From positions 1 through 64,000 of the forward strand of contig JAJPHL010000012.1 in assembly GCA_021325275.1 (NCBI GenBank): 64,000 nt of DNA. Reading direction: 5' to 3'. The DNA is from Terriglobia bacterium. Its GTDB lineage: Bacteria; Acidobacteriota; Terriglobia; JAJPHL01. This document shows, piece by piece, positions 40,182 through 42,226 of this stretch. Made by a program: the position numbers and the translations under genes. Under the pieces are notes generated by a model that ran no database searches, was not told the origin of the DNA, and worked only from the letters and a program-made list of their open reading frames with translations. How positions within the stretch are numbered: the stretch's first letter is position 1; each line of letters begins with the position of its first letter.

Positions 40182-41492
40182 ATGCTGAGCGAAAAACTTC
40201 GCGAATGCGGGGTGGTGGGCGCGGGCGGCGCGGGATTTCCCACCTACGTGAAAGCGCAGTCGCAAGTGGAGTTCATGATCGCCAATGGCGCGGAGTGCGA
40301 GCCGCTGATCCACAAAGACGCCGAATTGATGTTCCATTTCCCCGGGGAGATTTTGGCCGGCATGACCGCCATGATCGACGCGACCGGCGCGCGCTCGGGA
40401 AAATTCGGCATCAAGAGCAAGAACGCGGAGTCGCTGCATGCGCTGGAAAAAAGTCTGAAGGACCGCCGCATCGACTTCGTGCAGCTCGGCGACTTTTATC
40501 CTTCCGGTGACGAGTACGAATTGGTCTACACGGCCACCGGCCGCCTGATCCCTCCGGCCGGCATTCCTTTGCAAGTGGGATGCGTGGTGAACAACGTGGA
40601 GACGTTGTACAACGTGCAGCGCGCGTTGGAAAATCGCCCCGTGACGGAAAAGTTTCTCTCGGTCTGCGGTGCGGTCCGCCAACCAAAATCGCTTTGGGCG
40701 CCGCTGGGCATTTCCTTCCGCGAATTGATCGAAGCCGCCGGCGGCGCAACGGTCTCCGATTTCGGCGTATTCATCTCGGGACTCATGATGGGCACGTTGA
40801 CCTTCGATCTGGACGACGTGGTGACGAAAACCACCGGCGGCCTGATCGTGCTGCCGCGCGATCACTACTTGCTGACGCGCAAAACGCGCTCGCAGCAGGA
40901 AATGAACCGCATCGGAAAATCGGCCTGCGATCAATGCAGCTACTGCACGGAGTTTTGTCCGCGCTACTTGCTGGGATATGAGGTGGTGCCGCACAAAGTG
41001 ATGCGCAGCTTGGGATTCACACTGACGGGCGGCGACATTTGGAATCAGTGGTCGGAGTTGTGCTGCTCGTGCGGGCTGTGCACGCTGTACGCGTGTCCCG
41101 AGGATTTGTATCCGAAAGAGGCGTGCGACCAAGGCAAGCACGATCGCCAGGAAGCCGGATTGAAATTCACGCAGACCAAGCCCGTACGCGTGCATCCCAT
41201 GAAGGAATATCGCCGCGTGCCATTGATGCAATTGCGCCGGCGGTTACAAGTGGAAGAGTACGAAAAGGAAACACCGTTTGAAAAAATCAGCCTGGACCCG
41301 CAAAGCGTTCGATTGAAGATGCGCCAGCACACCGGCGCGTCGGCCGCGCCCGCCGTGAGCGTGGGCGATCGCGTAAAGGCCGGGCAAGTGGTGGGACGCG
41401 TGGAAGCCTCGAAGCTGGGCGTGGATGTGCATTCCAGCATCGCGGGAAAAGTTCGCGCCGCGAACTCCGAGTTTGTCGAGGTCGCGGTTTGA
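40182..41492 (+). CDS. PduS/RnfC-like flavo-iron-sulfur electron carrier
   Basis: A 436-residue protein of the RnfC/PduS family. The FMN/NADH-binding part has VVGAGGAGFPTYVKAQ and NGAECEPLIHKD near the N-terminus. Two [4Fe-4S] clusters are indicated by C249-x2-C252-x2-C255-x3-C259 (CDQCSYCTEFC) and C294...C305 (CCSCGLCTLYACP). A lipoyl-like barrel-sandwich segment ends the protein (VSVGDRVKAGQVVGRVE). In 1,2-propanediol microcompartments PduS is a cobalamin reductase that recycles cofactor electrons and associates with PduT. The ATG at 40182 has GGAGG upstream. A PduT-like gene follows after a 185-base repeat. Confidence 0.9.
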   Translation: MLSEKLRECGVVGAGGAGFPTYVKAQSQVEFMIANGAECEPLIHKDAELMFHFPGEILAGMTAMIDATGARSGKFGIKSKNAESLHALEKSLKDRRIDFVQLGDFYPSGDEYELVYTATGRLIPPAGIPLQVGCVVNNVETLYNVQRALENRPVTEKFLSVCGAVRQPKSLWAPLGISFRELIEAAGGATVSDFGVFISGLMMGTLTFDLDDVVTKTTGGLIVLPRDHYLLTRKTRSQQEMNRIGKSACDQCSYCTEFCPRYLLGYEVVPHKVMRSLGFTLTGGDIWNQWSELCCSCGLCTLYACPEDLYPKEACDQGKHDRQEAGLKFTQTKPVRVHPMKEYRRVPLMQLRRRLQVEEYEKETPFEKISLDPQSVRLKMRQHTGASAAPAVSVGDRVKAGQVVGRVEASKLGVDVHSSIAGKVRAANSEFVEVAV

Positions 41493-41500
41493 AAGGTGCG

Positions 41501-41650
41501 GAGCGGCTCCGCCGCTTCTTTGTGCGGAAAGGCTTTGCCTTTCCGAAGGGAGTCTTGCCTTAAATTCTTGGTGGCAGGGCACAGCCCTGCCACCAAGAAG
41601 CGGACTGCGGAAAGGCGGAGCCTTTCCGCACAAAGAAGCGGCGGAGCCGC
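41501..41650. repeat. Palindromic element between the PduS- and PduT-like genes
   Basis: Two 43-base arms (41501-41543 and 41608-41650) are inverted copies differing by about two bases; each contains GCGGCTCCGCCGCTTCTTTG and CGGAAAGGC...GCCTTTCCG. Between them is a GTGGCAGGGC/GCCCTGCCAC hairpin. The right arm recurs near 14820-14866. It starts 8 bases after the stop of the upstream gene and could weaken read-through. Confidence 0.85.
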
Positions 41651-41677
41651 CCAAGACCCTCGGAAAAAGGTCTGACG

Positions 41678-42226
41678 ATGAAAAACTCAATTGGCTTGAT
41701 CGAGCTGACCAGCATCGCCGCGGGATTCCTTGTGAGCGACGCGATGCTGAAGGCCGCGGAAGTGGAATTGCTCCTCTCGCGCTCCATTTGCTCGGGGAAA
41801 TACATGGTGATGGTGGCGGGCGACGTCGCCGCCGTGGAGTCGGCGGTGGCGGCGGGCAACGAATCGGGAAATTTCTCGGTGATCGATTGCTTCGTGATCC
41901 CCAACGTTCACGAAGCGGTGTTTCCGGCGATCAGCGGCACGACCAAGATTGAGGCGCTCGAGGCGCTGGGCATTCTCGAATCGTTTTCCGTGGCGTCGCT
42001 GATCGAAGGCGCCGACGCGGCGGTGAAATCGTCCGATGTGCAATTGATCGAGATTCGCCTGGCGATGGCGCTGGGCGGAAAAGCATTCTGCACGCTCACC
42101 GGCGACGTCGCGGCGGTCCAGAGCGCAGTGGATGCCGGCGCTGCCATCATTGGACAAAAAGGAATGCTCGTGAACAAAGTGGTGATCGCGAGCCCGCGGC
42201 CTGAGTTGTTGAACGAAACGGTGTAA
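41678..42226 (+). CDS. PduT-like tandem-BMC microcompartment shell protein
   Basis: A 182-residue protein with two BMC domains (about 1-90 and 95-182), so it would form pseudohexameric trimers. The first copy has IGLIELTSIAAGFLVSDAML and SRSICSGKYMVMVAGDVAAV, with C38 at the position that binds the pore [4Fe-4S] cluster in PduT of Citrobacter. The second has GILESFSVASLIEGADAAVK and GKAFCTLTGDVAAVQ. With the PduS-like upstream gene it could move electrons across a shell. No other shell protein or lumen enzyme is encoded in the window. Confidence 0.92.
   Translation: MKNSIGLIELTSIAAGFLVSDAMLKAAEVELLLSRSICSGKYMVMVAGDVAAVESAVAAGNESGNFSVIDCFVIPNVHEAVFPAISGTTKIEALEALGILESFSVASLIEGADAAVKSSDVQLIEIRLAMALGGKAFCTLTGDVAAVQSAVDAGAAIIGQKGMLVNKVVIASPRPELLNETV

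Follow-up and report, generated by a model that had tools for sequence, protein, structure and literature searches.

A detached pduS-pduT gene pair as a probable satellite of a fragmented metabolosome

The pduS-like and pduT-like genes of the window, the 64-kb stretch of DNA that was analyzed, probably constitute a detached satellite operon of a fragmented metabolosome. The other shell genes are located on two contigs of the same genome, C40 and C20, and the pair would export electrons from NADH. The satellite position of the pair is strongly supported by the distribution of shell genes in this genome and in its relatives, and the electron path through PduS and PduT is one that we infer. The features of the locus are listed in Table 1.

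Table 1 Positions of the pduS-pduT features in the window
Feature	Position	Strand	Basis or remark
pduS-like gene, 436 aa	40182..41492	+	stop codon included; Pfam domains
First four-cysteine Fe-S motif, C249-x2-C252-x2-C255-x3-C259	40926..40958	+	predicted [4Fe-4S]
Second four-cysteine Fe-S motif, C294-x2-C297-x2-C300-x4-C305	41061..41096	+	predicted [4Fe-4S]
Palindromic repeat element, 185 bases, between pduS and pduT	41493..41677		genome repeat search
pduT-like gene, 182 aa tandem-BMC (BMC-T) shell protein	41678..42226	+	stop codon included; two PF00936
C38 codon in ICSGK, pore [4Fe-4S] ligand position of PduT	41789..41791	+	alignment with PduT C38

The pduS-like product is composed of an FMN- and NADH-binding Complex1_51K domain, an SLBB domain, a Fer4_17 domain, and a C-terminal RnfC_N domain, as identified by Pfam. 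PduS has been described with the identical four domains (PMC6325248), and the CxxCxxCxxxC and CxxCxxCxxxxC spacing of the two cysteine motifs agrees with that published for PduS (PMC2982820). All eight cysteines of the motifs are invariant across 44 homologs. The AlphaFold model of the protein, built on an alignment of homologs, has a pLDDT of 92, and its best fold matches are RnfC subunits from Rnf complexes, including an NADH-bound complex. The protein is similar to RnfC in its FMN/NADH-binding and [4Fe-4S] domains and in its fold. It differs, however, in the position of the RnfC_N domain at the C-terminus and in being always paired with a shell protein, and it scores below the cut-off of the rnfC subfamily profile. 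We assign the product from its sequence as a flavo-iron-sulfur protein of the PduS/RnfC type. The first-pass annotation of this DNA had described it in similar terms, as RnfC/PduS-like with two four-cysteine motifs, and the Pfam domains and the invariant cysteines bear this out.

The pduT-like product contains two PF00936 BMC domains, and its C38 aligns to the cluster-binding cysteine of PduT, as the same annotation had noted. The cysteine is invariant in 36 homologs, and is also present in all 13 PduT-bearing relatives identified by a protein search that did not select for the motif. The nearest solved structures, by both sequence and fold, are the PduT-type BMC-T proteins 3nwg, 3pac, and 3n79, the last of which is a C38S mutant of PduT. 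The AlphaFold model (pLDDT 92, built on an alignment of homologs) superimposes on 3nwg, 3n79, and 3pac with TM-scores of 0.87-0.93, and is less close to 5dii, a BMC-T protein engineered to bind a [4Fe-4S] cluster. Both AlphaFold models represent monomers without cofactors, so that the pore cluster and the PduS-PduT interface are outside their reach. Against the NCBIfam profile TIGR02526 the product scores 130.5 bits, under the equivalog cut-off of 250.3 bits. It is predicted to be a PduT-type BMC-T protein, yet not a TIGR02526 equivalog. The repeat between the two genes, reported earlier as 185 bases, has exactly this length; it matches the genome at 69 places on both strands, in most cases over only part of its length.

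The Pfam E-values of the pair (1e-41 and 1e-45), together with a dN/dS of ~0.1 for both genes, which corresponds to purifying selection, indicate that the gene pair is not a product of chance. The repeat element between the genes could be taken as a sign that a microcompartment operon has been lost and that the pair is its decaying remainder, as could homologs of ~46-53% identity that are located inside fuller loci with aldolase, aldehyde dehydrogenase, and shell genes. Nevertheless, both reading frames are intact and under the selection described above, the cofactor residues are invariant, the pair occurs in two phyla, and the remaining shell is present, which makes decay the least probable of the explanations considered, with hardly any chance of being correct.

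The genome containing the window (6.86 Mb in 75 contigs, 97.6% complete) was searched family by family. Four matches to the BMC domain were obtained. Two are the halves of the window protein, and the others are a BMC-H on C40 and a BMC-H on C20. Three BMC-P genes are all located on C40, where they form a row with the BMC-H and a class II aldolase that carries a C-terminal extension. Contig C20 contains a gene of the Beta_elim_lyase family, a BMC-H, and an aldehyde dehydrogenase. Thus, pduT is positioned apart from a main locus with BMC-H and BMC-P, which corresponds to a BMC satellite locus as understood previously (Axen 2014, Sutter 2021). The first-pass annotation had called the pair an orphan. 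The term is apt for the window, in which no shell gene beyond pduT was found, but does not hold for the genome, in which the BMC-H, BMC-P, and aldehyde dehydrogenase genes that it had recommended looking for are present on C40 and C20. Family searches of the genome identified neither a second PduS or PduT nor a complete BMC operon with a PduS and PduT of its own. PduL and glycyl-radical enzymes were not found in the genome by family searches that were positive in control genomes. The diol dehydratase family gave no match in a search that had no positive control, as no control genome matched either. No B12 gene was noted near the pair or near the shell loci.

The Beta_elim_lyase-family gene on C20 (L009, 10403-11452, minus strand) encodes, by inspection, a threonine-aldolase-like PLP enzyme that could supply acetaldehyde, and it immediately precedes the BMC-H and aldehyde dehydrogenase genes. 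We dropped it as a component of the system because it was not seen beside three other aldehyde dehydrogenase satellites. The satellite of BMC-H and aldehyde dehydrogenase adjoins a recJ-like gene in L214, L216, and L218, as it does in the window's genome.

Full-length PduT of the window type is present in 13 of 101 genomes, and PduS orthologs occur in the identical 13, adjacent to pduT in every one (the window's genome and all 12 relatives with the genes). BMC-P is encoded by all 13 pair-bearing genomes and by 36 of the 88 other relatives (Fisher p=3e-5; p=3e-4 for the 10 detached pairs alone), where the shared ancestry of the relatives makes the p-values overstate independence. Ten of the 13, including that of the window, are detached two-gene pairs on a contig different from that of the BMC-P triplet, and PduS of the nine other detached-pair relatives is 64-80% identical to that of the window. 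The remaining three genomes, L049-L051, represent a separate lineage, with identities to the window's proteins of 46-48% for PduS and 52-53% for PduT. In L050 and L051, the pair is embedded in loci with aldolase, aldehyde dehydrogenase, BMC-H, and BMC-P that resemble PVM-like types, and in L049 the contig is short and also carries an aldolase.

A scan of GTDB genomes identified at least 80 named loci, with search patterns that included ICSGK, so that the conservation of C38 among these loci is partly due to selection. The listed loci belong to Bryobacterales, other Acidobacteriota, and Ignavibacteria/Melioribacteraceae, with a few titled otherwise. PduS is upstream of PduT in 79 of the 80 listed loci, with a median gap of 13 bases; the gap is at most 60 bases in 69 of the 79, and 2.1 kb in one. 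The exception is L082, whose genome encodes PduS on a different contig. No BMC-H, BMC-P, aldolase, or aldehyde dehydrogenase was found beside the 80 listed loci within flanks of up to 10 kb, with some contigs ending sooner. BMC-P is encoded by 40 of 40 further pair-bearing genomes tested from Acidobacteriota and Ignavibacteria, mostly in exactly three copies, and by 53 of 53 pair-bearing genomes overall. At least two BMC-H genes besides the PduT of the pair are present in each of the 14 genomes tested for BMC domains. Among the Ignavibacteria that were examined, the genes for BMC-P and BMC-H are dispersed at separate places amid housekeeping genes.

The detachment of the pair from other shell genes at nearly every locus might suggest that PduS and PduT function on their own as a redox pair, independent of a compartment, one of two options that the first-pass annotation had offered. 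We rejected this reading as very improbable because shell genes are present elsewhere in the genome, because all 14 genomes tested for it have BMC-H, and because the co-occurrence with BMC-P is strict: the pair is missing from all 52 relatives that lack BMC-P. The other option, a satellite serving a distant microcompartment, has become strongly supported by the shell loci on C40 and C20, by the lack of a second PduS or PduT in the family searches, by the conserved adjacency of the two genes in all 12 relatives that have them and in 79 of the 80 listed loci, and by the presence of BMC-P in all 53 pair-bearing genomes examined. The annotation had named a full BMC operon with its own PduS and PduT, together with a lack of conserved adjacency, as refuting its idea, and neither was observed. 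The pair is absent from 36 of 49 BMC-P-bearing relatives and is therefore not essential to the compartment type. The main loci of pair-bearing and pair-less genomes do not differ in their core of aldolase and BMC-P, and no nearby enzyme family cleanly separates the two groups.

Beyond PduS and PduT, no conserved neighbor is common to the Acidobacteriota pair loci. In L040, L041, and L044, which belong to one family, the pair is downstream of genes that by eye encode amidohydrolase, aminotransferase, GTPase-like, and carbamoyltransferase-like proteins, a cluster that is possibly involved in nucleobase breakdown. In most of the Ignavibacteria loci L084-L131, a gene that by eye resembles a SpoIIE/RsbU-type phosphatase directly precedes pduS. 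Both kinds of neighbors look lineage-specific. In L207 and L208 (Ignavibacteria), two BMC-P genes are positioned just downstream of a phosphopentomutase-like gene (by eye), which might point to a nucleoside sugar as the substrate.

According to the proposed mechanism, PduS would be bound to the PduT trimer on its lumenal side. NADH produced by the aldehyde dehydrogenase would pass a hydride to the FMN of PduS, which would split it into single electrons over its two [4Fe-4S] clusters. From there, the electrons could continue to a [4Fe-4S] cluster that three C38 residues would coordinate in the pore of PduT, and then reach an acceptor in the cytosol, which would regenerate NAD+ within the compartment. 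PduS from C. freundii binds PduT, and NADH reduces its FMN and one of its Fe-S clusters (PMC2982820). Electron exit through PduT was proposed in the same study and discussed later (PMC6325248). The published potential of the PduT cluster, +99 mV, fits an electron sink and is silent on the direction of flow here (PMC2982820).

Export is preferred because PduL and a glycyl-radical enzyme were not found, a diol dehydratase gave no match in the control-less search, and an aldolase and an aldehyde dehydrogenase are located beside the shell genes; the same absences make cobalamin recycling or radical-enzyme activation unlikely. The same satellite module could work inward, with a cytosolic donor reducing PduT and PduS for the benefit of a lumenal reductase or the upkeep of a lumenal redox enzyme. 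We consider this unlikely, since the client enzymes were not found (a glycyl-radical enzyme, and a diol dehydratase in the search without a positive control), and the visible lumenal candidate is the aldehyde dehydrogenase, which belongs to a family that makes NADH and does not consume it. The anatomy of the module nevertheless fits either direction, and inward flow was proposed for the activation of radical enzymes in GRM compartments (PMC6325248).

A characterized homolog of PduS reduces cobalamin (PMC2982820), and the protein could therefore be a corrin reductase that serves a B12 enzyme and is anchored in the shell by PduT. This appears improbable in a genome with no PduL found, no diol dehydratase match in the search described, and no B12 gene noted nearby; moreover, many compartments without B12 enzymes have PduS homologs (PMC4207490). 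We retain electron export by a satellite operon as the preferred reading.

In the phylogenetic tree, PduT proteins of the detached module from both phyla are positioned apart from PDU PduT and 3nwg. Most inner forks are weak, and the tree therefore fits a single origin as well as a transfer between the phyla.

Satellite loci are already known, as are compartments of the ACI and FRAG types and redox pairs of PduS and PduT. A detached two-gene PduS-PduT module strictly tied to fragmented compartments in two phyla was not found in the main texts of the publications cited here. Why PduS and PduT are present in microcompartments that lack B12 chemistry has been described as puzzling or as an open matter (PMC4207490, PMC6325248). 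We tentatively suggest that there may be a type of aldolase and aldehyde dehydrogenase metabolosome without B12 or radical enzymes that exports its reducing power directly as electrons, with PduS and the iron-sulfur pore of the trimeric PduT as its NADH-oxidizing exit, and that both phyla keep this redox module as a two-gene operon of its own. With the detached pair strictly tied to a fragmented and poorly understood compartment in two phyla, the problem shrinks to two genes and a few shell components, typically two BMC-H, three BMC-P, and one PduT. Relatives that have a similar compartment and lack the pair provide a natural comparison.

The PduS and PduT proteins of the PDU compartments of Citrobacter and Salmonella resemble those of the window in the domain order of PduS, the two four-cysteine motifs, and the tandem BMC domains with C38. 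PDU PduT and window PduT have similar folds (TM-scores of 0.87-0.89) with a sequence identity of about 40-44% in the fold alignment. Unlike the PDU genes, the window pair is detached from the shell locus, PduL was not found, and diol dehydratase had no match in the control-less search. GRM compartments share with the window pair the tandem pduS-pduT arrangement, the conserved clusters and pore cysteine, and a compartment that here, too, appears to be without B12 chemistry (PMC6325248). However, the GRM pair belongs to the same locus as its glycyl-radical enzyme, whereas the window pair is detached and the enzyme was not found.

The ACI type is described in the main text of its account as having an aldolase with a C-terminal encapsulation peptide, a BMC-P triplet, and an aldehyde dehydrogenase on a satellite (PMC8217296). 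The window's genome is similar in combining a class II aldolase, BMC-H, and the BMC-P triplet in one locus, with the aldehyde dehydrogenase on a satellite (Sutter et al. 2021). According to the main text, ACI loci are mainly from Subdivisions 4 and 6, whereas close relatives of the window pair are largely Bryobacterales. ACI also has a hydroxyacid dehydrogenase in the main locus; inspection by eye of the open reading frames near the C40 locus noted none. The main text of the ACI account mentions neither PduS nor PduT (Sutter et al. 2021). FRAG compartments, described there in the main text from Ignavibacteriae and others, share scattered shell genes and a BMC-P triplet with the window's genome (Sutter et al. 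2021), and the detached PduS-PduT pair is likewise present in Ignavibacteria. In contrast to FRAG, the three BMC-P genes of the window's genome are still together with BMC-H and the aldolase. Judged by gene content, the C40 and C20 loci appear to resemble the published ACI and FRAG metabolosomes.
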